A stretch of 64,000 nt of DNA from Aureobasidium sp. EXF-3400 (Eukaryota > Ascomycota > Dothideomycetes > Dothideales > Saccotheciaceae), in the NCBI GenBank assembly GCA_024195585.1, contig SWBL01000068.1, forward strand, positions 1 to 64,000, in the 5' to 3' direction. How positions within the stretch are numbered: the first letter of the stretch is position 1; every line of letters begins with the position of its first letter. A program made the translations under genes and the position numbers. This document shows, piece by piece, positions 1-16,117 of this stretch. The notes under the pieces are model-generated. The model worked only from the letters and a program-made list of their open reading frames with translations, searched no databases and had not been told where the DNA came from.

Positions 1-95
1 CAGCCGAGACCATGGAGGACGATGGCTGGTCCACCGTCTCGGCCAAGACTAAGAACTTCAACCGCAGAGGAGGCAACCGCGCCATGGCCTCGTAA
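1..95 (+). CDS. 3' end of a protein-coding gene (partial)
   Basis: An open frame (codons from base 3) enters from the left edge and stops at TAA 93-95. The last residues contain a DDGWSTV motif, then a Lys/Asn/Arg-rich tail with an RRGG stretch. Such short Trp-containing acidic motifs followed by basic Gly-rich ends occur at the C-termini of some fungal RNA-binding and translation proteins, but 30 residues do not allow an assignment. The gene is cut by the window edge, so length and start are unknown. Confidence 0.55.
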   Translation, partial: AETMEDDGWSTVSAKTKNFNRRGGNRAMAS

Positions 96-1048
96 AGAGA
101 CCCATGAACGAAAGTAACGAGACCGACCTGTTTTCCCGCTACCATCCCGAACCATCCTCGCAATACAAACGATTCGATCACTATCCGGAGTTTTGAGAAG
201 GAAAAGGGAAAAAATGCTTGTTTTGTAATGTCTGCACTGGGTTCTTTCTTTTTTGACATACACACCTTTACCAACGCAAGATGGCCATGAGATCTCTTTC
301 ACGCTGTTCGCAAGTACCCCCATCCACGCTCATCCTGCAATTCTTTCTCAATTCTTTCTTAGTCGTTACAGGAATCGCAAAAAGTCATTTGGTTCAAATC
401 ATGTTCTTACTACTCAGCTCTTGTCATTACATTGACTGTTGTTCACTCGGCTCTTCTCTTTTTCGTCTGTTCATATTCCTCCCATGTAAACCGCTAAGTG
501 AGTCATTCCCATACTACGATAGATGCGTATATTCTATGCCAGAGGTTTCAGTAATCTTCACCCGACAAAAATGCGATGAAAAGGATGTGCAGAAATGTAC
601 GAAGAGCTTTCTCTCTCCCTTCTAGCTTTCGGTGGCTAGAATGGGTTTCTGCTTTGCTAGAACTTGGGACAAGTACATTCGTTGGCGGGCATTTGTCTTG
701 ACGCGGTAGTTGCAGAAGCTAATCCACCACATCGCGCAACCTCGAAGCAGCAAAGCTGATGTTTGCAGATGTACTGCTCTTTGCATCAAGCATTTATAGG
801 GCACGTCGTCAGTCAAAACTCTATCGGCCGCAATCATGCTCATTACACCCACAAATCAAACAACTCGTTTGAGTCACCCGACCAGCCATCCGACGATAAA
901 AGGCGACAGTGTCTCACTATTCTTGTAGCTTTTTTTCTCTATCACAATCAGACTGACTGGAACATAAAGCGGCTTACCATCGTCACTTCCACATTTCGCC
1001 ATTTATCGAATTCGCGATTTCGAGACAGTCCACCAACCATCACCAAAC
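96..1048. other. Intergenic, no gene recognised
   Basis: This stretch holds the 3' flank of the partial gene and the upstream region of the next gene. Its open frames are short, overlap on both strands and resemble no family I know. A pyrimidine-rich stretch near 905-1000 precedes the ATG at 1049 and may be part of that promoter or leader. Confidence 0.5.
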
Positions 1049-1744
1049 ATGGTTCTCGTCAACACCCATTCAGCAACATTCACCGATGTTGTTGTTGAGT
1101 TCTTTTCTGGACGCCGCTCCAACTTGACTGTGCTTCACTCGATCGAAGCTGTTCTCAAGTCTCTGAGACAGCCTCCATCTTTCAGAAATACTATCAGATT
1201 AGGGATCATCGAGAGAGCCACCTGTGAGATGCCTAGTCCCACCGATCTGATCAAGAGCATCAGAGTTGTGAACCCCTTCGTCAACTATCGCATTGCCGAT
1301 CGCCATATCGTGGTTTCAACTGATGGTCTACGCATATCACACTCGTGGTACTTTCCCGATGATTCTCTCCAATCGTGTAGCGAGTCCGGCGATGGATGCT
1401 ACACTCCTGACTCAGAAACTAGCAGTCCGGTAGAAGAACACAATAGCAATGATGAACAGTCTCTTACGGAAGGGGCACCATCACACAGAGGTGCTTCTGT
1501 CCACACTGCGCAAAACACCGTCGAAGAAGCCCTCATACGCTTGGCCTCCATGATCGGAATTGTCAAAGCTCTCTTTGACATTGCTTCATATCTGAGAGCC
1601 AATCCCAACTTCCTCGAATTCGAGCCGTGGATTGAGGTCTTGGATGCTTGTGTCGAGCGTATCTGGATCCAGACTTGTATCTTCGGGTTCCCGATTTACA
1701 TGTTCTTCAGGATCATGCAGGATTTTCGAGGAGGAACAGGCTGA
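1049..1744 (+). CDS. Hypothetical protein, 231 aa
   Basis: A single uninterrupted frame of 231 codons with an ATG in good context (AAAC before ATGG). I do not recognise the family. The N-terminal third is mixed alpha/beta, residues about 110-155 are Ser/Glu/Asp-rich and probably disordered, and the C-terminus has a hydrophobic run (IWIQTCIFGFPIYMFFRI, about 207-224) that could be one membrane-associated helix. It lies just left of the unusual segment and has no palindromic element after its stop, so I do not count it as a member of that set. It could be a lineage-specific orphan or a chance frame. Confidence 0.5.
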   Translation: MVLVNTHSATFTDVVVEFFSGRRSNLTVLHSIEAVLKSLRQPPSFRNTIRLGIIERATCEMPSPTDLIKSIRVVNPFVNYRIADRHIVVSTDGLRISHSWYFPDDSLQSCSESGDGCYTPDSETSSPVEEHNSNDEQSLTEGAPSHRGASVHTAQNTVEEALIRLASMIGIVKALFDIASYLRANPNFLEFEPWIEVLDACVERIWIQTCIFGFPIYMFFRIMQDFRGGTG

Positions 1745-1924
1745 GAACTCGCAGAGAGAGCAATTGCTAGGATGAGGGCGGAGGAAGGAGACATGCACAA
1801 GATAGCATGGGGTAGTGGTTGAGAAGGTTCATGTGGTGAATTCTTGTTTAACATCTCGATGGTTATACAATCTGTTGCCTGCAGATAGAAGCCATAACAT
1901 ACCTGCCTTGGGTAGAAGTAACAA

Positions 1925-2119
1925 CTACTTAAGTGTATGGCCCAGACTCAATATAGTAAGATGTACTTGATCTCGCGCGAAAGAAGAAACACCGTTGCTA
2001 GGTCGTAGGCAAGCCACAGAATAAAACTTCTGCCCACGCAGCTCCGCGTCGCCCAGCATAACAGTCATGAAAGAGGCTCGGCTTTTAGAGGATAGCAATT
2101 CTTTCGTCTTTGGGAGCAA
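1925..2119 (-). pseudogene. Broken fragment of a GIY-YIG-like gene
   Basis: Read on the minus strand, this stretch resembles the intact gene at 3109-4987 around its nuclease-like core. LLPxTKELLSSxSR is shared with residues just before the GVYACL motif, and weaker similarity continues through the region matching GVYACL and KVG. Reading fails on both sides and the rest of the domain is missing. I read it as a decayed paralogous fragment. The similarity was judged by eye over about 45 residues and is clear only in the first 15. Confidence 0.45.
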
Positions 2120-2436
2120 GATGTTTTTCTTGCCTTTAGCCTACCATGTTCTCATCCGGCACCATACGTAGCTCAAAGCCATCGGTTTTGACATATCCGA
2201 GAGCGAGGATATGTAGCGAGGATAACCCTGTGCATCTGCGACCACTACTCTTCAAGCCGATCGTCTTTCTTCTTCTTCTTCCTTCCGTTGGGCTTAAGAC
2301 ATCCCTGTATCGAAGTATGTAAGTCATATAGCTATAAAAATGCACAATAGTATCAGGAAACAGGACAGTGCCCACTGAGAAGCAACAAGTGGTCGACTCT
2401 CTGTGGACAAGCCTCCGCTTCTGAACACCGTCAGAT

Positions 2437-2590
2437 CTATCTATGATGTATGTTTCGCTCTTCTGCTATAGTCGGAGCGCGATGGAAATTATAGACTTCA
2501 GCAAGCGAGGAGGAGTGGGATCCTGCGCAAATCTCACCATCTTCCTTGAAGCCCTTGTGGCTATAAGTGCCATACCATTGCATGACACAG
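2437..2590 (-). pseudogene. Broken C-terminal fragment of a C2H2-like protein
   Basis: On the minus strand this encodes a segment matching the extreme C-terminus of the intact GIY-YIG/zinc-finger protein at 3109-4987. MQWYGTYSHKGF aligns with MQWRGIYAHRGF, followed by the shared pattern (E/D)GxE(I/L)CAGS. The upstream zinc fingers are absent. The fragment is fused on its 5' side to the 75-bp OPT-like inverted repeat (2620-2694). Part of its 3' side (2464-2504) recurs at 24505-24543. Confidence 0.55.
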
Positions 2591-2619
2591 ATATCGGAAA
2601 ACTGTGGATAGTGGCACCG

Positions 2620-2694
2620 GTAGATTGTGGCGCCGGTAGGGTTCTTGTGGCCACTGATGGCATCAATGATATACATACCTAGTGTTACATAGCT
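2620..2694 (-). repeat. Left copy of a 75-bp inverted repeat (OPT-like)
   Basis: The reverse complement of 2620-2694 aligns without gaps to 14946-15020 at roughly 80% identity by eye; the best part is GGCCACAAGAACCCTACCGG. Both copies translate to AI(S/G)GHKNPTGATIY, a segment of OPT-family transporters, and the differences between them look codon-compatible. The two copies face outwards and enclose about 12.3 kb. Similarity ends abruptly at the ATCTAC edge. Confidence 0.75.
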
Positions 2695-2849
2695 CGATTC
2701 GAGAGCTCAAATATGTAGCGGAGATGACCCTGTGCATTTGCGAACGTCACTCTCTAAGCTACATGTGCGGAGAAGACAACTCTGTGCATTTGCGACATTA
2801 CTCATACTCTTCAAGCTATATACTGTACTCGTAATCCTACTCATGTCAA

Positions 2850-3105
2850 TGGCCGGGGTAGGACAGGCCCCAGAAAAGCACTTCGCAAAAGGTCTGACTC
2901 GTGATACCCTCCATGTAGATGACCGGGGTGGATAGGCCCCAGAGAAATACTCCGAGAGTGTTTTGACCCATGATACTCTCGATGTTGATGACCGGGGTGG
3001 ACAGGCCCCAGAAAAGCACTTCGCAAAAGGTCTGACTCGTGATACCCTCCATGTAGATGACCGGGGTGGATAGGCCCCAGAGAAACACTCCGAGAGCGTT
3101 TTGTC
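2850..3105 (-). repeat. Palindromic 3' element block, 4 units
   Basis: Four units lie directly after the stop codon of the GIY-YIG/zinc-finger gene. In the sense of that gene each unit is a palindrome followed by a CTGGGGCC(T)...CCCCGG stem. Units near 2922-2965 and 3061-3103 carry a good palindrome (ACTCCGAGAGTGTTTT type). Units near 2852-2891 and 2991-3028 carry a diverged arm (AAAAGCACTTCG). The good and diverged units alternate, so the block is a 139-bp dimer duplicated once. Confidence 0.8.
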
Positions 3106-3108
3106 GCT

Positions 3109-4987
3109 CTACTCATCCTTCTTCTTCCTCACCGCAGGCTTACGAGTTGAACCTGCACAAAGCTCGTCACCTTCTTCAAACCCCCTGTGGGCATAAATGC
3201 CACGCCATTGCATGCCACAAATACCACAGTTACCGCGGCCGTTCTCGTGCTGGGCCTTGATATGTCTGTCAAGATGAGCTTGGCCGTTATCGGTGTTTTC
3301 TCTCCATTGCCCACATCGTTCTTCAGGGCAGAAGACCTTTAGCGTGGGTGGCACATGGATCTGGGCGGCGTTCTCAACCTTGCACTCGTTGAGAGCGTGC
3401 TTGTTCGCGTAGGCAGCATGGGCGTATCGTAGACCGCAAGCTCCACATTCGAATCTGCCAGTCTTGTGTTGCTTCTCGTGCTCGACCAGAAAGATGGCGT
3501 GCTGCTTGTAATCGCAGCGAGGGTCAATGCATCTTGTACGGCTGTGCTTCTTCAGCGGTTCGGAGACTGCAACACCTCTTTCATGTGAGTCAAGATGGCG
3601 TGTAAGGGAGGTGGAGTTCTTGAACCCTTTGCCGGGTTGTGATCTACCGCAGTCCGGGTAGGTGCAGAGATGGAGGTCGGCGTTCTGGTTGTTGTGAGAC
3701 GCGACGTGTCCTTGCAGTGCATTGCGAGTGGGCATTCTACGTCCAGGTGCGGCTCTCAGGCAACCTTCGACAGTACAAAGGTACAAGTCATTGCGGATGT
3801 TGTCGTCGGAAGCGTGCCATTCCATATGATAGCCGAGGGCTTGAGGACAACCGAAGCCCTGACCCTGGTTCCTGACGCCTCTTGGACATCCCTCGATGGT
3901 GCAAAGGTAGATATCGCCCTCGACACAAGCAGCTTGCTGCCTTCTCTGTCTGGCGGTCTCGCGAGCAGTCTCTGCGGCTTTGCGTTCTGCAATCTCGTCT
4001 TCTGAACGCATCTCCGGACGGTTTGCCCAGCCGTCACGAATGGCGTTGTGAGAGTCTCCACCAGACCACGGCTCTAGAGTGTCTCCGTCGTCGAAAGCCC
4101 ACCATTGCATACCGCGGAACTTGTAGTCAACACTTTTCTCATGGAGAGCGCCCAGAGCGCTTGCCAGCATCGCTTCGATTTGGTAGTATCGTGCGGCGAG
4201 ATACTCATCTTCCTGAGTTTTTCGGACGAACGGCTCACCCATGGCGAGGGTGTACCAGTTGAGTTCGAGGATTTCGGAAGGAGAGGTAGACTGGATGTAC
4301 TGATGGAATGGACTTCCGGTATCGGCACTGTAAACATCGTCAATACTGAGCCTCAGCGGACTATGATTTGTCAAACATCACTTACTACTCTTTGGACAGC
4401 TTATCGTTGAGGTGTTCCCACTTTCTCGCCCTCAGTCCACCATTCACAGACCAAGCACATCCGACCTTCAGGATTGTGGAGAGGATGTTGCCAGCAGAGT
4501 CTTTCTTGACTGCTAGACAAGCGTAGACTCCGGGAGCTTTGGTGTCGATCCATCTGAAGTCTTTGAATGAAGATGGCGAGGGTCGACTACCAGACGAGAG
4601 GAGTTCCTTGGTCCAAGGAAGAAGACTGTCCATGGCAAATGCAACGTCTCGGTCGAAATCCCAGTCACCATTTGTGGTCGACATTGCTGCAGCATACTTG
4701 TTGCTCATCGTGCAATGGTGGAGTTTCTCGAGGTTTGTGTGCCATGCTGTTGTGAGATCGTCCTCAATGGCGGAGGCAGGATCATCCTCCAGAGGGGAGG
4801 CGGCATCATTGCTTGATGCGGATGAGTCATCGTCGTCCAGGATGACAACTTGTTTGGCGGAACTACGAGGCTTCTTTCGAGGCGGTGAGTCTTCGCTCTC
4901 AAGGGCAAGGCTTCCATCATCGTCAGGGACTTCCGGTATGATCTTTACGGCGCGTGAAAGAGGGGCGTCCGTTAATAAAGGAGCCAT
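3109..4987 (-). CDS. GIY-YIG-like domain plus C2H2 zinc fingers, 606 aa
   Basis: Two exons (4987-4386 and 4327-3109) are joined by a 58-nt GTAAGT..CAG intron that keeps frame across ...LSKE/YADTGS. I start at the ATG at 4987; the upstream in-frame sequence is a low-complexity Pro/Ser leader. Residues 1-100 are acidic and Ser-rich with a basic PPRKKPR patch. Residues about 150-260 resemble a GIY-YIG nuclease fold: GVYACL, then KVG, an Arg in GGLRAR, and a Glu in QIEAMLASAL. The C-terminal half has at least five Cys/His clusters with C-x4-C and H-x(3-4)-H spacing, such as CTIEGCPRG and CGICGMQW. GIY-YIG domains cut DNA and zinc fingers give DNA binding, so a nuclear DNA-targeting protein is the simplest inference; activity is unproven. 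The left-edge pseudogenes derive from a paralogue. Confidence 0.75.
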
Positions 4988-5665
4988 GATGGCAATTGAA
5001 ATGGTGGATGGAAAAGGCAATAGGAGATGGGAGATGTCGATGGGAGAGGGACGATGGGAGAGGGACGATGGGAGAGGGACAATGGAAGATGGAAAGTGGA
5101 GAGGCGAACAGGAGAGAAAGCGCAGATGGGCGTTTTCAGCTGCAGCGAATGATTCCATGGTTGGGAAGTGCAGGTGGTTGCTCCTTCCTCAACTCTGGTT
5201 GATTGGCAGCGTCGAATCTTGAAGCCCGTGGTTGGAAAGGGCAATCAGTCATTACTCCACTAGAAAGGATTTGAGACCATTAACTTGTGATAGTAACTGT
5301 GAACATATATTCCAGAGAGACCATAAAACATCAAAGATAGAAGGATTAAACCCGTATAGCTATCACGATGCCATTGCTATCGAGACATCTCTCGAACCTT
5401 GAGGTGAACGGTACCTACCTGTTCAGCGTTCAGACGCCGAGAAGTCGAGTGCCAAGGCACGGTCAAATCCAACACGCAGTCAACCACGAGCATGATGGAA
5501 CTCTGTATAAGAAGAGTTAATACACAAAAGAAACAATAGATATGGAGAATAGCTTGTATTGCTATGGATCGGAACGCATCTGCTTTAACTACTTCGAATG
5601 AAAAGACAAAGCAAAGCCAATTGAACCGGGATAAATCTCAGAGATAGCAAGAGCTGAGTAGATAG
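4988..5665. other. Upstream region with purine-rich tandem repeat
   Basis: This is the leader and promoter side of the GIY-YIG/zinc-finger gene. At 5037-5090 the plus strand repeats GGGAGAGGGACGAT about three times, so the gene's leader is strongly C/T-rich, common near fungal start sites. I see no gene between 5230 and 5665. Confidence 0.55.
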
Positions 5666-5948
5666 CCGGGGCAAGACAAACCCCAGAAAACACCTCGAGA
5701 GTGTTTTTGAACATACAAGTCGATGGATGAGATATAGGTAGACGGCCGGGATAAGATAGACCCCAGAAAACACCTCGAGGGTGTTTTTCAACGTGAAAGT
5801 CGATGAACAAGAGCTAGGTAGATGCCGGGGAAGATAAACCCCAGACAAACACTCTCGGAGTGTTTTTGAACGTACAGGTCGAGGCATGAGAGCTAGGTAG
5901 ATGACCGGGATAAGATAGACCCGAGAAGAACACTCTCGGAGTGTTTTG
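5666..5948 (-). repeat. Palindromic 3' element block, 4 tandem units
   Basis: Four tandem units of about 79 bp begin near 5666, 5744, 5824 and 5904. Each has CCGGG...(A)CCCCAGA on the plus strand followed by an (AA)AACAC(C)TC(T)CG(A/G)GAGTGTTTTT palindrome. In the sense of the gene at 6000-8181 the palindrome comes first and the GGGG/CCCC stem second, starting about 50 nt after its stop. The spacer GAGCTAGGTAGATG is also repeated, so the units arose by tandem duplication. Confidence 0.85.
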
Positions 5949-5999
5949 CGACGGTGGTAGAAGACCCTAGAGGATAATCTGAGGAGTAGGCGACAAACT

Positions 6000-8181
6000 T
6001 CAGCGACGGCGTCTGTGATCAGGGCCAGTGCGCTGAGAATGCCAGGTGTTCTTTGCTTTGTGGCAAGGTTTGCAAAGATATCCTCTGCAGGAGGGACAAT
6101 ACAACCTGTCTTTCTGCTCACATTTCTCGACCCAACCGTCTTCACAGAATCCACGACGCTGCTTGACCGGAAGATAGGTGATATTCCGACTGTGATGATC
6201 ACACTGCATCACAAGAGGATTCATCTTGGCGCTAAAGCTCCCATTTGGCAGCCGGGAACGTGACGGAGGCTGTTTCTGGGCCTCGGAGTTGGTTTGCGGT
6301 GCGGCATCTCCATTGGTGTTTAGCGATGCGATGGCTTTGCTGAGGGCGCCGAAGGCGGACCAGTCAGACTTTTCAACTCGGACGGACTCCTTTACTACAG
6401 TGGAGGGGATCACGGTGCTTGCTGTAGGCGTCATAACAGCGCTACTCAGCTCTTCGGGAGAAGTTTGTTCAGCTGACGACATAGTCGGAAGAATTGCAGC
6501 AGCAGAACAAGTACTTCTTGATCCAGAGAATTCGAAAAGCTCGAACTGCTTGTCTGGCATCATGACTGCTGGTGCTGAAAATACACTCTGCTCTTTACCA
6601 TGACCCTGGTTGACCCTCGCAGATGTTGCAAAAACACCCTCAGAGTGTTTTTCGGGGGTCGCATCCTTGATCGGAAGAGACTCAGGGTCTCTGGGAAGCT
6701 CTGTCGAGACCTTCGATGATTCGTTCTGCCCATCGTTGACCTCATCGACGACTTCCGAGGACGAGATAACACTCTCGAAGTGTTTTTTGGGAGTAGCGGT
6801 AGCAGGGTCTGGACCATTACGAGCATTTTTCGCAGCCGCATAACGACGGCGCTTGCTAAGGAGCAAGAAATCATTGAACTGCTCCTCGAGTTCCCATTCT
6901 GGCGGCTCGAAGTAGCAGCGCTGAGATTTGCGCTGAATAGGCAATGCAGAGTCCTGCTAGAAGATCAGTGGTCTGCATATCATCTTGAGCAAAGGTACTC
7001 ACTGCCAATTTCTGTGACTCGGAAGGTTCAACGCTTTGCAGAAAGGCATATCTGACCTTTTCCATCACCCATTCACCAATGCTTTTGCTGGGTACCAGAT
7101 CTGAATCGTCCGAGAGATTGGTGGTTTGGTTCTTGCCAGGACCATCAATGTGCTCCGTGAATTCCTTGGTGCGGCCGTACGAGAATCTGAACCGAGGCCT
7201 TTGATCAGCGTCAAGATCAAGACGCGCCTCTTCCTCGACTGCCATAGGATAGTGTTCACGACCTTCCACAATGGCGTGGAAAGACTGGACGTGTCTCTTC
7301 CAGCCAGGGGACACGACTCCGAGGAAGACCTTTGGATCCAGCAAGGACAGCCCAATCTCCGTGACGACTTCGACGGGCTGATCGCCCATAGTTTGGAGGC
7401 CTCTTATGCTACAGAGATCAGCTTGGATTCCTCCACACTAAGCCTGGCCGCCTGACTTACATGTCAACAGAGATGATGATAGGCATAGAGGCCCGATCTT
7501 GGAGGAACGCAGCCGGAAGAGAAGCTCCAGAGAAGCGTAGCATCATCTCGAACAGGTTGCAAAGCACAAAATGTGCATGATTCCCCGAGTTGCCGTACTC
7601 GTCGTACTTGAAGATTTGTCCACATGCCCAAGAAAGACGTTCAAGACCTGATAGTCCTCTGGGTCAGTAACATAATGCAGGACAGATGGCCAATACGTAC
7701 TGATAGGATGGAGCGAAGACTCTACGCCTTTATCGTTTTCACTGCGGAATTTCTGAAACTCTGGTTCTGCTTCGGTGCCTCTGCTTCTGAGCCTGCTCAA
7801 ACGCCCTGGTCGAGAGCTACTACCCGGTGGCGGCAAAGGTCGTGGTGCGAAGACTGGGGGAATGCACTTGACACGCGTCTCGTTGACGAAATAGTGTTTC
7901 GCCAGTTCTTGGGCGAGATCGATGGTGCTGAAAGCGTCGCAGAATATACGCGAACTAAGAGACATCAGCGATTGGGTTCTAGGGACTTGACCATGCTAAG
8001 CTTACTCGATTCCTTCATCCATTAAGGAGCCACTGAAGCACTGCTTCTCTGCATCGTGGTGAACGAGAAAGATTGGACGCTTCGTTTCTGGATTAGGCTG
8101 TGTGGACAAGCGCAGTCTCTCATCGGGCAACAGGCCGCATTGCCGGCACAGGAATTCTAGATCACTCTGGTATCGTGACAT
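6000..8181 (-). CDS. Possible Gfd2-type RNase H-like protein, Cys-rich tail, 658 aa
   Basis: Five exons: 8181-8006, 7954-7701, 7647-7461, 7408-7003, 6953-6000. The four introns are 49-53 nt, all GT..AG, and every junction keeps frame. The start is the first ATG before MSRYQSDLEFL; an additional upstream exon is possible. Across exons 3-4, PIIISVDI...VTEIGLSLLDP resembles the core of the Gfd2/YDR514C-like family, an RNase H-type fold, followed by a later FRFSYG stretch. The acidic residue normally two positions after the Asp is replaced (SVDII), so catalysis is doubtful. The last about 70 residues have a cysteine cluster (CPSCRGYLCKPCHKA) suggesting zinc binding. The middle is low complexity and contains two palindromes as coding sequence. 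Family assignment is tentative; gene structure is firmer. Confidence 0.65.
6630..6652 (-). repeat. Palindrome copy inside coding sequence (1)
   Basis: A near-perfect palindrome with AAAAACAC and GTGTTTTT arms lies within exon 5 of the gene at 6000-8181. In the gene's sense it encodes part of TPEKHSEGVF, near residue 442. Unlike most 3' copies it lacks the following GGGG/CCCC stem. Confidence 0.8.
6768..6790 (-). repeat. Palindrome copy inside coding sequence (2)
   Basis: A second palindrome of the same family (AACACTCTCGAAGTGTTTTT) lies in exon 5 and encodes part of TPKKHFESVI, near residue 397. It has the same reading frame and flanking TP(K/E)KH codons as the first internal copy, so the two probably arose by duplication. 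Confidence 0.75.
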
Positions 8182-8607
8182 ATGAGCGACTATCAAGAAC
8201 GGATGGAGATGGGGTGCTTACAGGCATTATGTGTTGTGTGCGCGGTATGCGCGGTGTGCGTGGTGTCGGAGTTTATGATGCGCGTGCGGAAAAGGGAAAG
8301 GCAAACAAAGGAGACAAACATAGAATCGCGTCACATGCTTAGAAAGATGACATGAGAACTTGGGAGCTGGACAGTTTCCGGCACACATTAGAGAAAGATT
8401 AATGTCATTACGAGGGTGAGAAAAACACCCTGAGAGTGTTTTCTCTCTGTCGGTATCGTTTTGTATTTGGTCTCCTAATGTCCTCTTTCCTTCTGTGTCC
8501 CAACTATGAAGGCGGTCAACTGGGGCTCAAAGCCAGTTCTTGTTATCCTGATGAAGCATAAGTGAAGTTCAAACAATAATGCAGCCTGAATGGTTACCAT
8601 GGATTCC
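8182..8607. other. Intergenic with one palindromic element at 8421-8442
   Basis: The region separates the upstream end of the gene at 6000-8181 from the stop of the small gene at 8608. It contains one good palindrome (8421-8442, AAAAACACCCTGAGAGTGTT then TT), 166 nt after that stop and in its 3' flank. A GCGCGGT/TGCGTGG low-complexity stretch at 8241-8275 lies upstream of the left-hand gene. Confidence 0.65.
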
Positions 8608-9018
8608 TCAAGCGTCAGACATGGCGATGTCCAGGAAGTTTTCTGGGGCCGTGATCTTGTGGGATCTTGAAGCACCTGGCTTGACATTTGATGCGATGAG
8701 GGCGTACTGCAGAGGAGTGACACTTTGCTGCTTCTTGCGGTATGCTTCGTCGTAAGTCTGAAGTAGTTGGGTCGATTGAACTGGCTGACCCTTATCGTAG
8801 GTTTTCGCTAGGGCTTGAATTCTTGGTACGTCTTCAGGCGCGATCTCGATATCTTCATCGCCGTCGTCGGAGACGTTGATATATTTCTCTTCCAGTGCCT
8901 CGACGTCCTTTTCTTCGTGGAGTAAAGCATTGTACAGGATGGTGTACAAAGTTTTGGCAGTGTAGAAGATCTTGGGATTTTGAGTTGGACGGGGAGTGCG
9001 ATCATCCGTAGACGCCAT
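8608..9018 (-). CDS. Small orphan protein, 136 aa
   Basis: A single-exon frame. I start at the ATG at 9018 (MASTDDRTPRP). An in-frame extension upstream to about 9129 is possible but looks like leader sequence. The predicted protein is acidic in its middle (SDDGDEDIEIAPEDV, about 52-66), probably helical, without membrane segments or a signal peptide, and matches no family I know. It is flanked by the RNase H-like and Ulp1-like genes, shares a divergent upstream region with the latter, and carries one palindromic element in its 3' flank like its neighbours. That shared feature is the main reason to treat it as a real gene of the set. Confidence 0.55.
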   Translation of the reverse strand: MASTDDRTPRPTQNPKIFYTAKTLYTILYNALLHEEKDVEALEEKYINVSDDGDEDIEIAPEDVPRIQALAKTYDKGQPVQSTQLLQTYDEAYRKKQQSVTPLQYALIASNVKPGASRSHKITAPENFLDIAMSDA

Positions 9019-9365
9019 ATTGGTGAACGTGGAATTGCGATCGGGCTTAGATTGTATACAATCTAGGGAAGAGAGAATAGAACAGAGGGTGTGCTGAAAG
9101 GTCGATGCGGTAGCGCCAAGAACTTTCACTCCATGCAGGGTTGTACTCCGTACATGACAAACGATATTCGTGGCACAAACGCGCTACAACTTTCACACAC
9201 ACCTCTACAAGACAATACATTCGGAATACTGCTGAGCTTCCTTTCAACTCGATACCTAAACCACTTCTCGATCACAAACTGGTGCGCAATCAAAGTGCTA
9301 CTCGTCAGTAACAAGCTGTCTGACCATACGCTTTAACTAGTGTCGGTGATCGCCAATCTTACGTC
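9019..9365. promoter_or_regulatory. Shared divergent upstream region
   Basis: The 347 bp between the start codons of the small orphan (minus) and the Ulp1-like gene (plus) must hold both promoters. I see no clear TATA box or repeated operator and no gene. Confidence 0.45.
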
Positions 9366-10615
9366 ATGCAAATCAAGAAGAAACAGCTCCGAGCCCTTGT
9401 CAACCTGCTTCTCGAAAAGAAGCACCCGCTCGGTGTATCCTTACAGCGCCGTTATGCCGAAGAACTGTCATTTGATGGAGACCCAGAAGCGATCGTCGCG
9501 CTCAAGGAGGTCGCAGATAGTCAAAGGATCTTCGACAGCTGTCACAAGCTGAACCTCACCTCAGAACAGCAAGAGGCTACAGGGCTTGCTGACATGCAAC
9601 TCTACATACCAACTCCTCCAAGCACACAACTACCACCTTCGCGCCCACTCGGCCGTCGCATCAGTAGTCCCAGGCGCTCAGAAGCTGGTGAGCGTATCAT
9701 TGTACACCCAATGATTGCAAACTTGGATCCCCATCAACAGAGCACGAGTATTGCCTACAGATACCGCAAAGTTATCGAGACTGGTTACGCTGGCAGTCTG
9801 ACCCATGATCAATTCGCCTTTGTCGAGTACGATTTCATCCCTATCGAGGTTCAACCTGAGACTCTCATTGACCTCACATTTACGGAAAGCTTGAACCGGC
9901 GCCTTCAGGGATATCTCACCATCGAGCCGACTTGGTATGGCGATGAAACTACCATCAGAAGCCAAAAAAAGAAACGCGCCGCCGCCATAGATATTGCAAG
10001 CAACCGTGGTATCGAGGATTCGCACACCGTAAAGACCTTCTTTCAGTTTGCAAAGGGCAAGCTGTGGCCGGAGCAAACGGCAGGCTCGATCGGCATCGAA
10101 GATGACTTTGTCTACGACAAGCCTCGTTCTTTCCCCCCAGCACAGGAAATGGCAAAAGCTGGTGGCAAGCTCCTTGTTCAGTTCTGGTAAGTCTATGACA
10201 AGCAGCAGTCATGCGTGAAATACTTACACACGTCAGCACAAACACCCATTGGGCCATCGCTTTCATCGACTATGCAAACAAAAACCTGACGTACCTCGAT
10301 TGCATCCCTCGCAGCCCAGATGCTCTGACAAGAATTAGCAGAAGAATCTTGAGAGATTGCACGTCTGAAGTCGAGGCGTTCACTTGCACGCTTGCTGATT
10401 GTCCCGTGTTCAACGCGGATGGTGGCGCCGACAGAGTCTTGTCGCTACTCAACATGATCGCATACATGTTGAAGCTGGAGCCTTCGAAGCTGTACTCTGC
10501 AGATGCTCAGACCTACGGCAAACTCAGGATGTGGCTGGCTTTGTCGCTGCTTGAGGACCAAATTCCACGTTACACCTTCGACGAAAACGTGCGAAGGTAT
10601 GAACGTACTGGCTAG
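9366..10615 (+). CDS. Ulp1/C48-like protein, catalytic Cys not visible, 399 aa
   Basis: Two exons (9366-10186 and 10237-10615) with a 50-nt GTAAGT..CAG intron; splicing joins VQF to CTNTHWAIAFIDY and keeps frame. The second half resembles Ulp1-type cysteine proteases, which process SUMO-like modifiers: an HW pair (THWAIAFIDY), then a strand with Asp (LTYLDCIPRSP). Where the family has a Q-x-N-G-x-D-C-G-type catalytic Cys motif, this protein has PVFNADGGADRV with no Cys, so it may be a pseudoprotease, or the true Cys lies elsewhere. The N-terminal 240 residues begin with a basic helix (MQIKKKQLRALVNLL) and are unassigned. Three palindromic elements follow the stop. Confidence 0.65.
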
Positions 10616-10705
10616 AGGTGTTACTTCTCACTTCTGGGGCGATGCCCCGGCTTCAACAGCAACTATGGACACTCATTTAGCTATGCAATTCAAGTCCAGA
10701 ACGAT

Positions 10706-10863
10706 AAAACACTCTTGGAGTGTTTTGTGGCCGCTCGGGGTAGGGAGAAAAGGGTTTCAAAGGATGGATATGATTTCAGACGTGGATGCAAGGATGGTAA
10801 TGGAATAAACACACCGAGCGTGTTTTTTTCTTGGGCATGGTAAAAACACGCTGAGCGTGTTTT
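10706..10863 (+). repeat. Palindromic 3' elements, 3 copies
   Basis: Three palindromes follow the Ulp1-like gene: 10706-10726 (AAAACACTC / GAGTGTTTT arms), 10806-10828 and 10842-10863 (ACACNC / GNGTGT arms with GAGCGTGTTTT). The first is followed by a G-rich stretch, and the others by TTCTTGGG and TTCCTGGG, which look like decayed forms of the second hairpin seen in other blocks. Confidence 0.8.
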
Positions 10864-10976
10864 CCTGGGAAGGATAGATTCAGATGCGGCATAAGGACAA
10901 TGAAATCCAGCACAAAAAAGTTAGACGTGTTTCACATGAGGTGAGATTGATAGTGAGTGAAAGTGCCATCTCTTAA

Positions 10977-11091
10977 AAGATCTTCCGATCAAGTCATCTT
11001 CCGCTTCTGTCTTTCACCACAACCAAACACCTTGTAAGATCTTCCAATCTAGTAATCTTTTACTTCTTTCTTTCGCCACAACAAAACGCCA
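10977..11091 (+). repeat. Tandem ~59-bp repeat upstream of the large gene
   Basis: Two adjacent copies (10977-11031 and 11037-11091) share AAGATCTTCC(G/A)ATC, a pyrimidine-rich middle and CCACAAC(C/A)AAAC, and end about 60 bp before the ATG at 11151. Position and C/T-richness suggest a duplicated promoter or leader block. Confidence 0.6.
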
Positions 11092-11150
11092 ACCTCGATC
11101 GCATAACCACTTGTCTCCTTCTCTCTCGGCATTCAGCGTCACCACATACC

Positions 11151-14100
11151 ATGAGCTCTAGCTGGGAAGACGACGATGACACCGCCGCTGCCGTGGCTGG
11201 ATGTCTCCGGCAGTTTCGAGACTTGGTCGGTCTGAGCAGCGCACATGTGACTCCTGACCTCGAGCGCGAGATGGCAAGAAGGACCAGAGATCTGATGGCA
11301 AACTTGATCTCGCAGCACCATCCCACTACACCAACCGTCCCGCAAAACGGATTTGGTATACCTACCCCGGGCACAAGCGGCTCGCCCTGGAGCACTTCTG
11401 CGGAGGTGCGCGAAAGACTTCAAGCCGCCCAACGCGAGGGACGTCGCACGATACAAGCCAACAAGCTTAAGAGAATCCAAGAGGAGGAACAAGAAAAGCT
11501 CAGAAGAGCTGAAGAGGAGGAACAGGAAAGGCTCAGAAGAGCTGCAGAGGAGCAACAAGAGAAGGCCGACCGTTGGAGAACGGCTCAAGAGGAGAGACGC
11601 AAGCAGGCTGACCGCCTGAAAGCTCAGAATGAGGCTGCTGCAAGAGCCCGAGCAAATGCAGCTGCAGCTACAGCCAGAGCTCAGAATCGGGTGGCCGATA
11701 GAGTTATGTTGGAAGACTTCAGAACTCAGCAAAATCTCAACATCCAGAACTCCAAGCAGCTGGACCACATTTCCCTCAGGCTGCGTCACACAAGGGCCGG
11801 CCAGGCTACGAGGGAGTTCTTTGCCAGAGCCAAAGCTCAGGCTAAAGCTGAGCTCGACCAGATGAGAGCTCAACAAGATGAACTTGCTCTCGCATCTGCC
11901 CAGCAAGACTTGGATCGCCTTACACTCCAACATGACCCGGCCAATCAAGTCGACGCTGCTCGTCGTGCAGCCTTGCAAGAACAGGCTAGACAAATTGAGG
12001 AGGATCGTTTGAGACTCGAAAGAGAGCAGGCCGCTCAAGCTGAAGCCGACAGACTCGCTGCCGCACAACAAGCTGAAGCCGACAGACTCGCCGCCGCCAG
12101 GCAAGCTGAAGCCGACAGAGTCGCCGCCGCCAGACAGGCCGAACTACAAAGAGCCGCCGCTGCCAGGCAGGCTGACGCTGAAAGAATCGCTGCCGAACAA
12201 CAAGCTGAAACCGAGCGACAGAGGGTCAGGGCTGCTCGTCAAGCCCGAATGGACGACGAGACCGCCCTCTCTGGTTTGGGTCAGCTTACCATCATCATCG
12301 ACCAATGGCGAGCCGATTTCCTGCAGGTCGTGAACTCTCTCGGATATCATACCGAGCTGTATCGTGCTGTTGCACATTTATGGTTGGTGGACGAGCACTC
12401 ACTTGATATTGTGCGAAAGAAGTGTCAAGCACTGTGGGATGCTGTTCTGAGCGGAGATGAAGGTGACATCAACCCTGCCAAACGCCTGCGCCAGACGATG
12501 TATGCTGGCATCAGACAGCGGGATGATGATATCGAGGAAAGACTGAGAGGTTCCGCGACGGGCTCTTTGGATGTCGTGCAAATCATTGCCGATGCGTTTG
12601 ATATTCAGCTTGTTGTCTACAAGCGAAGAAACCGCAGGTGGACAATACACGTTCGCGGCTCAAATGGGCAACATCAACGCCGAATCCACCTGGTCAATTA
12701 CTCCGAGATCCGATTGTGGGCGGCGCTAGAGCCCAGATCACCCATTCCTCCATTCCGCAGCGTGGCCTCAGTAGCATCCGGTGGGGCTTTAGTACCTCGA
12801 GGTCTCCCACGCAACGAGGGCTCTGATGATGTAGTCGGAGTGACAGTCGACGACACTCCTCCTCCCGAGGACTTACCTGTCAACGCCGAGAACAAGCTAC
12901 GCGTGCTCTATTCAGCATCGGAGATCCTGGAGGCGATCCAGGCGAGTGACATTCCCTCAGTTAAGAGGGCAGGGTTTGAGCCTCCTTTGCCCCGCAAGAG
13001 GGTGGGAAAGCAGGGACAAACGGTTAAGTCCGCTCCAGACATGCTGGACTGGATGTCCAACATCATCAAGAACCACTATGCAAAGGAGCTTGATGAGGCG
13101 AAGGCAAAGCGCGATGGTAGCCTTGCAGTCCTCCAGCCCACAGAAGCTCAGGGATTATCAAGCTACGCCAACAAGCCCGCGCTCTTACTCGACGACGCAA
13201 GCAGTATAGACGTCACGGCTTTACTTGGCCACATCAAGCAGATTCGCCAAAATGAGCGGGCTACAAAGCTCCAAAGACTTGGGCTTGACTCGTGGGTTCT
13301 TGATATCATTCGAGCGATTCAAAGACGCAACAAGGCAGAAAACAAGCTTGGAGAAATCATGACCACCGAGTTAGTATTTGCAGCTCTTGGAATCAAATTC
13401 CCACAGGGCTACCCTCAGCTGGTTACTGCTTCGCTTCTTAACAACAACAACGTCGAGTTTTTGTTTGTTTCTGGCGAAGCTGGCGAGAAGATGAAGGCAA
13501 ATGCCGCCCAACAGTGGCGTAATCGGTTGGTTTCTTACTTCAGAAACATGAAACGCCTGCGAGAAGAAGACTGCATGTTCGTTGCGACCGCCGACATGAA
13601 AAACCTCCAGAAAGTGCTCAACGATATCACAAAACCCGACGTCGACCTGCTCCCATGGGCCAAGCTCTTCCGCCCGATAGCTCAGCTCGTCAGTCATCGA
13701 GCCTGGAGCATAGTTCATGGCGACTGGTCTGGCCGTAAAGTACTTGAGCTCGAGGGCCTGCCTACCACTTCGCTGCTTGAAATCCTGACGGAACTTGAAT
13801 TCGAAGTTAGGGATTGGCATGACCTACGGTCTCGTTGGGAAGAACTTGTAGATGCTGTGACCTACAACGAATCGCATCCCTCATATCCGATTGGTACTTT
13901 GGCAAGCCCCCTGATCGCTCTTCAAGAGGGCTTCTTAGGAGACGAGGGCAACAACTTCAGTTGGTCTCTCTGGCCAAGGTTGATGGAGGATGACCTTGAG
14001 ATCTGTGCCTCAGTACCAATTCCGAAGGGAGCATTTCTGGGGTATCTCCCTGGCCTGTGTTGCTACAGTCCTTCCAAGCCTGTGCCAGATGGCTGCATCA

Positions 14101-14336
14101 GAAGCAACGTACCAGGCCTGTACATCAACGACGGCCAACCTGGCCTGCTGACTTACGTTACACGCAATCGGCAGTTTGAAGATTGCAATGTCATTGTCGG
14201 CTGGGAACCCTTCAGCGATGAGAAATGCCCCTCCCTCACATCCTTCCACCTCGTCTTGTTCTCGTACCGCGAGATCCTACCTTTTGAACCCTTGATACTC
14301 TGGAACCATTTGGAGGTTTTTCAGACAATCACCTGA
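11151..14336 (+). CDS. Large coiled-coil protein, possible OTU-like and SET-like parts, 1061 aa
   Basis: A single-exon frame from an ATG in good context. Residues about 95-365 are highly charged coiled coil (EEEQEKLRRAEEEEQERLR) ending in five or more tandem copies of an (A/Q)EADR(L/V/I)AAA(R/Q)QA unit of about 11 residues. Residues about 385-515 loosely follow an OTU-type fold: a helix LYRAVAHL, a basic helical stretch, then (D)VVQIIADAFDIQLVVYKR and a late NYSEIRLWAAL, but the DGNC motif with the catalytic Cys is missing. Residues about 940-1045 resemble a SET domain: VPIPKGAFLGYLPG, then YREILPFEPLILWN, without the usual NH pair. Both assignments are by eye and weak. It could be a structural or chromatin-associated protein. 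Four 3' palindromic units follow. Confidence 0.7.
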   Translation: MSSSWEDDDDTAAAVAGCLRQFRDLVGLSSAHVTPDLEREMARRTRDLMANLISQHHPTTPTVPQNGFGIPTPGTSGSPWSTSAEVRERLQAAQREGRRTIQANKLKRIQEEEQEKLRRAEEEEQERLRRAAEEQQEKADRWRTAQEERRKQADRLKAQNEAAARARANAAAATARAQNRVADRVMLEDFRTQQNLNIQNSKQLDHISLRLRHTRAGQATREFFARAKAQAKAELDQMRAQQDELALASAQQDLDRLTLQHDPANQVDAARRAALQEQARQIEEDRLRLEREQAAQAEADRLAAAQQAEADRLAAARQAEADRVAAARQAELQRAAAARQADAERIAAEQQAETERQRVRAARQARMDDETALSGLGQLTIIIDQWRADFLQVVNSLGYHTELYRAVAHLWLVDEHSLDIVRKKCQALWDAVLSGDEGDINPAKRLRQTMYAGIRQRDDDIEERLRGSATGSLDVVQIIADAFDIQLVVYKRRNRRWTIHVRGSNGQHQRRIHLVNYSEIRLWAALEPRSPIPPFRSVASVASGGALVPRGLPRNEGSDDVVGVTVDDTPPPEDLPVNAENKLRVLYSASEILEAIQASDIPSVKRAGFEPPLPRKRVGKQGQTVKSAPDMLDWMSNIIKNHYAKELDEAKAKRDGSLAVLQPTEAQGLSSYANKPALLLDDASSIDVTALLGHIKQIRQNERATKLQRLGLDSWVLDIIRAIQRRNKAENKLGEIMTTELVFAALGIKFPQGYPQLVTASLLNNNNVEFLFVSGEAGEKMKANAAQQWRNRLVSYFRNMKRLREEDCMFVATADMKNLQKVLNDITKPDVDLLPWAKLFRPIAQLVSHRAWSIVHGDWSGRKVLELEGLPTTSLLEILTELEFEVRDWHDLRSRWEELVDAVTYNESHPSYPIGTLASPLIALQEGFLGDEGNNFSWSLWPRLMEDDLEICASVPIPKGAFLGYLPGLCCYSPSKPVPDGCIRSNVPGLYINDGQPGLLTYVTRNRQFEDCNVIVGWEPFSDEKCPSLTSFHLVLFSYREILPFEPLILWNHLEVFQTIT

Positions 14337-14363
14337 ACTCACTCCGACTTCCATGACTCCTCG

Positions 14364-14726
14364 ACTATGAAACACACCGAGAGTGTTTTTTTCCTCTGGG
14401 GTCTATCCCTGGCTCAGTCACGGTTCTTTTCTCTTGTCTTTTGCCCAATCCTCGACTATGAAACACACTGAGAGTGTTTTTCTCTTCTGGGGCCTGCCCC
14501 CGGCTGAGGGTGGGCTATTTCCTTTCTCTTCTTCTTGTCGGCTTTCAATTTTCTTCCTCCACCCACTGACTATGAAACACACTGAGTGTTTCTCTCTTCT
14601 GGGGCCTGTCCCCGGCTGAGGGTGGGTCTTTTCTTCTTCCTGTTGTTCCGTGGGCTTCTAGCGATTATCCTCCAGCCACTCACACCGAGAGCGTTTCTCC
14701 TCTGGGGCTTGTCCCCAGCTCAGCCG
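14364..14726 (+). repeat. Palindromic 3' element block, 4 tandem units
   Basis: Four units begin near 14364, 14455, 14569 and 14677, starting 28 nt after the stop at 14336. The first three start GACTATGAAACACAC(C/T)GAG. In each unit a palindrome is followed by (T)CTGGGG(C/T)(C/T)T(A/G)(T/C)CCC(C)(T/A/C)GGCT(C/G)AG, which folds as a GGGG/CCCC stem. Unit 3 has a deletion in the palindrome (ACACACTGAGTGTTT). Orientation is again sense with the gene. Confidence 0.85.
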
Positions 14727-14945
14727 CGGCTCCTCTTGTGTTTCTGACCTCGACGTCTTTCTATTGAGGGCAGTGTGGCGATTCAAGGTGGCGGTGTTGG
14801 TCGGGGTGGTAGATACATTCAATACAAGCCCATTTCCAAAAATGATACCTTCTCCGATGAGTGATTGGTGACTAGCACAGCACATAACTAATTGGTGAAT
14901 AGCTGCAGCTCTGGAAGTAGTAGAGACGAAATAGCAAGCGACAAA

Positions 14946-15020
14946 AGCTATGTAGCACCAGGTACGTGATTTGTCAACGCTATCGGGGGCCACAAGAACC
15001 CTACCGGCGCAACAATCTAC
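14946..15020 (+). repeat. Right copy of a 75-bp inverted repeat (OPT-like)
   Basis: This is the partner of 2620-2694 in the opposite orientation and of equal length. It reads on the plus strand as VNAIGGHKNPTGATIY and continues directly into the rest of the OPT coding sequence, so this copy sits in its native gene context while the left copy is detached. Confidence 0.75.
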
Positions 15021-15710
15021 AGTTCTATAGCTGGAGACGCATGGTATAGAGCGCAATACATGCTCCAGGACGCCAAGATCGGTTTCTACAACAAGGTTCC
15101 TCCTAAAGCAACTTTCTTCTCGCAGGTATTCGGGTGTACAATTGGTGTACCCATCAACTACGGCGTTGTGAAGTGGGTTCTGTCTTCAAAACGCGATATT
15201 TTGCTCGGCATTGAGAAAGACCCCACACACCAATGGACAGCACAACACCTCTCCTCTTCTCTGTCAACATCGGTCGAATACGTCCTCATCGGCCCTACAA
15301 AGATGTTCCAACAATCCTCCTTCAAACCCCTTCCTTATGGCTTCATCGTCGGTGCCTTCGCCCCTATCCTCATGTTCACCCTCCACAAGCTGTTTCCCAA
15401 CTCGAAGTTGAAGTTCCGCCTCTGGAATACCACAATCTTCTTCTCATGTGTGTCCAACTTCTACGGCAATGTTTCCACCGGCTACACCAGCGCCTTTATC
15501 GGAGGCTTCATAGTCATGTTCTGGGCATTCAGGTACAGAAACAAGTTGTGGACGAGATATAACTATCTCATGGGTGCAGCATTTGATGCTGGCTATAACT
15601 TGAACTTGTTGTTGGTGTTTTTGTTCTTTGGTTCCGGCAAGATTATCAGTATGCCTTATTGGTGGGGCAATAACGAGCAGAGTAGTGAGAGGTGTTTTGC
15701 TCTCGATTAA
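14946..15710 (+). pseudogene. 5'-truncated OPT-family transporter
   Basis: An open frame from about 14960 to TAA at 15708-15710 encodes about 245 residues typical of the C-terminal third of oligopeptide (OPT) transporters: GGHKNPTGATIY, then MLQDAKIGFYNKVPPKATFF, several membrane segments (GFIVGAFAPILMF, SAFIGGFIVMFWAF, NLLLVFLFF) and a final PYWWGNN...RC. Complete family members run to roughly 700-900 residues, so most of the protein is missing. A TGA lies in frame just upstream, and the preceding 250 bp offer no OPT exon. It probably no longer encodes a working transporter. An ATG at 15060 could start a 216-residue remnant. Confidence 0.7.
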
Positions 15711-16117
15711 TTGACGAAGGAAAAAGAAGCAAGGTGTATATATGATGATGATGAGATGTTCTTAGAGTGAAGTGGTTCTATGATGGGTGAATGGGACTTT
15801 TCATGAGCTGTATTAATAGCATGTATTCTATCTCAAGGCATAGAAACACACTTCACAGTCACGTTCTAATGATGTAGTGCTATAACAACGAGGTCACAAT
15901 TCAATGATCGAGTATCCCTATCTCTATGCATGAACTGAGAAGAGTGTTTAGAAGGTGAAGAGGCTAGTCAGTCACAAATGTGAGTTCTGTGCGTGAACAG
16001 CACACAAAAGAGTGTGTGGATTGTGATATCATATTCATGATGTATACATGCACCACCACATATACTAAAGCTAAATTTGCGGAATTATTCAGAGGTATCG
16101 TCTGCTTTTTGACCCAC
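15711..16117. other. Intergenic between convergent genes
   Basis: AT-rich 3' flanks of the OPT remnant and the oxygenase gene. I see no gene or repeat here. Confidence 0.5.

Follow-up and report, generated by a model that had tools for sequence, protein, structure and literature searches.

A small palindromic hairpin is repeated behind five neighboring genes in an island of about 12 kb near the start of contig SWBL01000068.1 (C68; 172,681 bases). The window that we analyzed is the first 64 kb of this contig, and the genome that we searched is its assembly (53.4 Mb in 717 contigs). The repeats keep to a position and an orientation set by the genes, they are nearly exclusive to the island, and their core is conserved. 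Also, a second array of hairpins, unrelated in sequence, lies behind a paralog of one of the five genes (on contig C66). Because of the gene-end position, the orientation of a second hairpin, the conservation of the core over the flanks, and the array on C66, a function at gene ends is the best single reading. We tentatively propose that the repeats are cis-acting hairpins in the 3' untranslated regions (3' UTRs) of a local gene set and that they are bound by a putative protein.

The palindrome and its copies

We found 15 clear palindromes and 3 degenerate ones, spread over positions 2875–14696 of the window. In the sense of the gene, the consensus is AAACACTC-nnn-GAGTGTTT, and this first hairpin has a stem of 8–9 bp and a loop of 3–5 nt (such as TCG, CGA, TGA, or CTCGA). 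The arm AAAACACTC has 12 matches in the window, as compared to 0.74 expected, and none of 100 shuffled sequences reached 12. Ten of these matches are inside the island, and two are lone arms (at 53635 and 58140). A repeat search of the window gave 14 copies of 22 nt with at least 71% identity, all within 2943–14480. We also built a covariance model on the 15 clear copies and ran it on the 64 kb with filters off; it recovers those 15 by construction, and nothing else in the window scored above 13.2 bits (E = 0.61).

An earlier reading of this stretch, made from the sequence alone, had placed the palindromes at 2.85–14.73 kb, which we confirm, and had counted 18 two-armed copies. Fifteen of these are clear. 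The other three (at about 2875–2894, 3013–3033, and 14677–14696) are at the correct place within tandem units, although the palindrome of their first hairpin is poor. As that reading also had it, 16 copies lie past the stops of five genes on both strands. We name the genes A, B, C, U, and O, and each array after its gene; the copies number 4, 4, 1, 3, and 4, respectively. The claim that the element follows every gene of the set is correct for the arrays (five of five are after stops) but not for the remaining two copies (b1 and b2), which are within the coding frame of gene B.

Each palindrome in arrays A, B, and O is followed, after 0–8 mostly pyrimidine bases, by a second hairpin of the form CTGGGG-loop-CCCCGG. 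The sequence-only reading described such a GGGG..CCCC stem after most copies, and this is so for 12 of the 16 palindromes at gene ends. At gene U, a single stem of this kind precedes the palindromes instead, and no second stem was seen near the palindrome of gene C. Hence the full two-hairpin unit is present in three of the five arrays. As read from the rows of the unit alignment, the loop of the second hairpin fits YYTRTCY (YYURUCY in RNA) in 11 of the 12 units, the exception being the second unit of array O (O2).

We considered a three-way junction as part of the general element, as O2 and O3 have an outer stem (equally strong stems arose in 0 and 5 of 300 shuffles, respectively). We rejected this idea: O1, O4, and all of the units of arrays A and B fail at the 0.05 level, and the flanks of O2 and O3 pair nearly as well across units.

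Position and orientation relative to the genes

The distance from the stop codon to the start of the array is 7 nt for gene A, 53 nt for B, 166 nt for C, 18 nt for U, and 33 nt for O, with genes on both strands. Positions within 165 nt past a stop make up 0.254 of the non-coding bases of the island, and the probability that all five arrays would be there by chance is about 0.001, with the qualifications that the cut-off was picked with the data in view (at 166 nt, gene C is 1 nt outside of it), that the array of gene U was taken to start at its lone second-type hairpin rather than at a palindrome, and that the non-coding limits depend on gene models made by eye. The second hairpin is in the sense of the gene in all four arrays that contain it, which bears out the earlier claim that orientation is set by the genes.

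Conservation and pairing

The core is better conserved than its surroundings. Identity between units (core versus flank) was 0.81 versus 0.71 in array A, 0.78 versus 0.60 in array B, and 0.79 versus 0.39 in array O. Pairing within the palindromes is conserved as well: across the stems of the 15 copies, 91.7% of 120 cells are paired, as compared to 88.3% in shuffles (reached by 1 of 500). The covariation score was 0.120 versus 0.058 (reached by 1 of 500), and there were 6 further pair types in the stem versus 3.7 (4 of 500). Nearly all of the covariation is in one pair of columns, which is seen as UA, UG, AU, CG, and GC.

In the gene sense, and with the arms set by hand, the non-Watson-Crick cells of hairpin 1 comprise 5 G-U, 3 A-C, and 3 others. 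Those of hairpin 2 comprise 14 G-U, no A-C, and 1 other, and most of these are a single inherited T-G pair. Folding z-scores (sense/antisense) were 0.49/-0.75 for array A, -5.05/-4.26 for B, -2.95/-1.46 for C, -1.18/-3.92 for U, -0.31/-1.36 for O, and -1.44/-1.14 for the array on C66; for 16 random pieces, the range was -2.70 to 1.65. Folding is far from that of shuffles for B on both strands, for U on the antisense strand, and for C on the sense strand only. Overall, the evidence for action as RNA over action as DNA is weak.

Distribution across the genome

The hairpin element is nearly confined to the island of about 12 kb. For AACACTCnnnGAGTGTT, all three exact matches in the genome are in the island. 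With up to one mismatch, there are 16 places versus 13 for the reversed control, which is a small excess overall; the island accounts for 10 of these places, and the remaining 6 seem to be chance matches. The two-hairpin pattern has six matches in the genome, all of them in the island, and its control has none. (In a collection of prokaryotic genomes, this pattern has four matches, which is not above a rough chance estimate of about 15.)

A DNA search with array O found one place outside of the island, on contig C5 (380510–380552; 91% identity over 45 nt, E = 1.3e-7). This copy spans about the whole double hairpin. It is on the + strand between two frames on the - strand. It lies upstream of one of them, about 395 nt from the presumed start, and past the end of the other, at a distance of about 550 nt (gene limits set by eye). 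Genome searches with arrays B and U gave no match outside of the island. For array A, the only search was with a 9-kb query that contained it; this search scored 40 of 160 candidates, and 41 of the 46 rows of matches belonged to a dispersed repeat, so that further copies like those of array A are possible. A covariance model of the copies and a genome search for neighbors had been suggested along with the sequence-only reading; the model, run on the 64 kb, found nothing else above 13.2 bits there, and it scores the C5 copy at 23.3 bits.

The window contains a dispersed repeat at 2292–2533, with about 75–220 nt per match, at least 41 further matches in the genome, and identities of 71–88%.

A second, unrelated array behind a paralog of gene O

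Gene O has two paralogs in the genome, on contigs C66 and C61, and the C66 copy is 26–36% identical. Starting about 47 nt past the stop of the C66 paralog, there are four tandem hairpins (C66:51660–51797) of the form CTAYGGAC-nnnn-GTCTGYAG, with variable loops. Their sequence is unrelated to the motif in the window. In the gene sense, the C66 stems have G-U at up to two positions and one A-C in three of the four copies (by eye). All four exact matches of this motif in the genome are in this array; with up to two mismatches, the totals (40 and 50) are below those of the controls (63 and 55). The presence of an unrelated array behind a paralogous gene supports a role at gene ends.

We scanned 25 stretches (196,676 bases), which are not a random sample as many were fetched because of matches, for three or more like hairpins spaced 25–250 nt apart. 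Only the island and C66 were found. Within the island, the scan picks arrays B and U, and arrays A and O miss the rule. Under the same rule, 20 simulated sequences of 64 kb had no hairpin cluster.

The genes and the edges of the island

Table 1. Genes and hairpin elements of the island, with positions in the window.
Feature	Position	Strand	Description
Array A	2856..3102	-	Four tandem 69-nt double-hairpin units; hairpin 1 degenerate in units 2 and 4; period 69 in Tandem Repeats Finder (TRF)
Gene A	3109..4985	-	C2H2 zinc-finger protein; exon 2 at ~3112-4374, exon 1 at ~4385-4985; intron and start by eye
Array B	5665..5947	-	Four tandem 80-nt double-hairpin units; TRF period 80
Gene B	6000..8181	-	Multi-exon; cysteine-rich C-terminus; no function assigned; based on frames
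Palindrome b2	6630..6651	-	Inside the coding frame of gene B; protein ...ATPEKHSEGVF...
Palindrome b1	6765..6786	-	Inside the coding frame of gene B, same frame as b2; protein ...ATPKKHFESVI...
Single palindrome of gene C	8421..8442	-	
Gene C	8608..9018	-	Small protein; no function assigned; start by eye
Gene U	9366..10615	+	Two exons; weakly Ulp1/C48-like
Lone GGGG..CCCC hairpin	10633..10650	+	Directly past the stop of gene U; based on repeat family and sequence
Array U	10705..10863	+	Three palindromes (10705, 10805, 10842), no second hairpin after them
Gene O	11151..14336	+	1061 amino acids; long charged repeats; C-terminal part common to the paralogs on C66 and C61
Array O	14369..14732	+	Four double-hairpin units, spacings 91, 112, 103; hairpin 1 degenerate in unit 4; outer stem in units 2 and 3

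The window is nuclear eukaryotic DNA, given that 7 of the 10 frames from outside of the island that we compared to Pfam contain known families (Spb1, protein kinase, WD40, fasciclin, and MFS among them) and that the frames in the island are interrupted by short introns (as read by eye in the translations). We infer that the source is a filamentous fungus.

Among the island proteins, Pfam identified C2H2_ASCIZ in gene A (E = 8.3e-10) and a sub-threshold Peptidase_C48 in exon 2 of gene U (E = 0.054; 13.8 bits, below the cut-off of 20.7); the remaining rows were weak and of no use. Gene C had no Pfam match at or below 0.01, and gene O had none. Resemblances to OTU, SET, and GIY-YIG were seen by eye only. 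Gene A has a paralog at C16:27010–27968 (51–53% identity), and a sequence search of PDB with its exon 1 gave no match. A genome search with exon 1 of gene U found no paralog. A partial conceptual protein for gene B maps to 6003–6959, 6997–7392, and 7687–8181, and nowhere else among the seven candidates scored. For the C-terminus of gene O, the AlphaFold model was uninformative (mean predicted local distance difference test of 34.3). In viral contigs, a search aimed at close relatives only found none for the proteins of O, A (exon 2), or U (exon 1), and the two-hairpin pattern had no match there. Gene O also contains coding repeats of 33 nt (11463–11564 and 12036–12233), and a 14-nt tandem repeat (5038–5093) directly precedes the presumed start of gene A.

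A 75-nt inverted repeat (2620–2694 and 14946–15020) was at first taken for the ends of a transposon. Both of its arms correspond to the same segment of an OPT transporter (from the translation, and from an OPT match in Pfam with E = 1.2e-40 for 15060–15710), and we dropped that reading. The transporter gene at the right edge of the island (14946–15707) seems to be cut on its 5' side, and at the left edge (2515–2694), an inverted OPT fragment lies beside a fragment of the tail of gene A. These edge fragments are a sign of duplication and rearrangement.

What the hairpins might do

If the repeats are gene-end hairpins, then small sequence-specific hairpins would be present in one to four copies directly past the stop codon, in the 3' UTR. 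The arrays would be transcribed, and within the mRNA, each of the repeated hairpins would be a site at which the same protein binds. Binding could then set the stability, 3'-end choice, or localization of the set's messages together. Multi-copy hairpins that serve as putative protein binding sites are the most likely mechanism, and the several iron-responsive hairpins in the 3' UTR of the transferrin receptor offer a model for it. A bolder version, which we consider very doubtful, is a private address code in RNA: the cassette would mark its own transcripts with one 3'-UTR hairpin that is read by a dedicated protein, the C66 relative would use a different private hairpin, and each set would control its own messages and not those of its relatives.

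Several results weigh against a role in the mRNA. Double-sided pair changes in the stem were not above shuffles (319 of 500), and RNAalifold on 12 double units (a poor alignment) gave three pairs only. G-U did not significantly outnumber A-C, either in hairpin 1 (5:3, p = 0.36) or among independent wobble events with C66 and C5 included (11 G-U, 5 A-C; p = 0.105 by hand count and binomial test). Nor did the sense strand fold consistently better than the antisense strand. The C5 copy is antisense to both of its neighbors, and copies b1 and b2 break the gene-end rule, as they lie in the reading frame of gene B, within a repeated peptide, ATP(K/E)KH(F/S)E(S/G)V. No array was found at the C61 paralog of gene O, at distant relatives of O (on C226 and at another place on C61), or at the C16 paralog of gene A. 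Finally, the rule for the cluster scan was loosened to 5 of 8 Watson-Crick pairs after the C66 array had been seen; under stricter rules, C66 is reduced to a pair of hairpins (at 6 of 8) or is absent (with 7-bp arms and 6 Watson-Crick pairs). The sequence-only reading had argued that the element works in the RNA or travels with the genes. The gene-end position is confirmed for all five arrays, and the C5 and in-frame copies give some support for travel, but neither sense folding nor the wobble bias, which is not significant, supports the RNA part.

Since the solitary and coding copies show that the module can be copied elsewhere, spread without function is a serious rival, although on balance we think it unlikely. 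A tiny mobile or copied palindromic module could have spread within the island by transposition, template switching, or gene conversion, persisted past genes because it is harmless there, and grown into arrays by slippage. The tandem periods (69 and 80 nt) and the spacings (91–112 nt) are consistent with this, as is the presence of a common core behind genes that show no DNA similarity when the first 20 kb are compared to themselves. But for a mobile family, the single outside copy that the searches with arrays O, B, and U brought up would be a very low number, and no target duplication was seen by eye at the in-frame and intergenic copies. By itself, such a module would predict neither the gene-sense orientation nor the unrelated array on C66. 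Ordinary growth of tandem repeats at gene ends, with the common core as debris of an older duplicated cassette, is the least probable of the explanations. Fragments of the tail of gene A and of a transporter exon to the left of the island do indicate that pieces were duplicated and shuffled, but the cores were kept while the flanks in array O dropped to 39% identity, and other tandem repeats of 30–81 nt in the scanned DNA have no hairpin clusters.

It is also quite improbable that the dyads act as duplex DNA, bound by a protein dimer (the C2H2 protein encoded by gene A is a candidate) and serving as terminators, insulators, or recombination sites. The dyad symmetry with its 3-nt center would suit this, sense and antisense strands fold about equally, a zinc-finger gene (A) is in the set, and arrays lie between the tandem genes C-B-A and U-O, where insulation would help. 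However, the second hairpin is fixed in the orientation of the gene. Furthermore, the C66 stems are poor palindromes as DNA (5–6 of 8 Watson-Crick) and pair better only with G-U.

Comparison with known systems

Short palindromes that are thought to be mobile are known from Rickettsia: the palindromic elements are multi-copy in bacterial genomes and also occur inside reading frames. Mitochondrial palindromic elements are also short, multi-copy, and thought to be mobile (PMC7218506). In contrast to both, the element described here belongs to a nuclear genome and hardly occurs outside of a stretch of 12 kb; where a dispersed mobile element would have many scattered copies, the genome searches with arrays O, B, and U gave a single copy beyond the island.

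Among gene-end signals, the short inverted repeats that lie close to poly(A) sites in yeast are A/T-rich and found across the whole genome (PMC6420913), whereas here there is one conserved motif in one island. Yeast Rnt1 recognizes an AGNN tetraloop and cuts 14–16 nt from the loop, and its hairpins occur downstream of yeast genes (PMC2779338). Our case resembles this in having a hairpin downstream of a protein-coding gene in a fungus, but the stems are 8–9 bp, the loops are 3–5 nt, and they are not AGNN. The sequence-only reading had drawn an analogy to mimivirus, in which a hairpin signal at gene ends is cut by a viral RNase III (PMC4402537). Palindromes at gene ends are indeed shared, but the analogy fails on sequence: the mimivirus signal is not conserved in sequence, whereas the core in the window is, with up to four copies per gene and in a nuclear genome with introns.

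An Rfam search of positions 1–16000 of the window with E up to 5 gave three rows, all below the gathering scores and none an iron-responsive element. A parallel in arrangement is the transferrin receptor, whose 3' UTR contains five small iron-responsive hairpins; at least three are needed for the response, and binding of the protein protects the mRNA (PMC4112806). In the island, several small hairpins likewise lie past single stop codons, in what would be the 3' UTR; these arrays differ in being common to a contiguous set of genes, and their transcription and their partner protein are putative. Scattered genes with a 3'-UTR hairpin in common are known (the iron-responsive elements), as are hairpin gene ends in giant viruses. 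In limited full-text searches of the literature, we found no report of a private, cassette-wide hairpin at gene ends, and such use appears to be new. A cassette with one private hairpin behind each of its five genes, and with a different set behind a relative of one gene, would amount to a compact RNA regulon that addresses itself, or else offer a rare view of the origin and spread of such elements.

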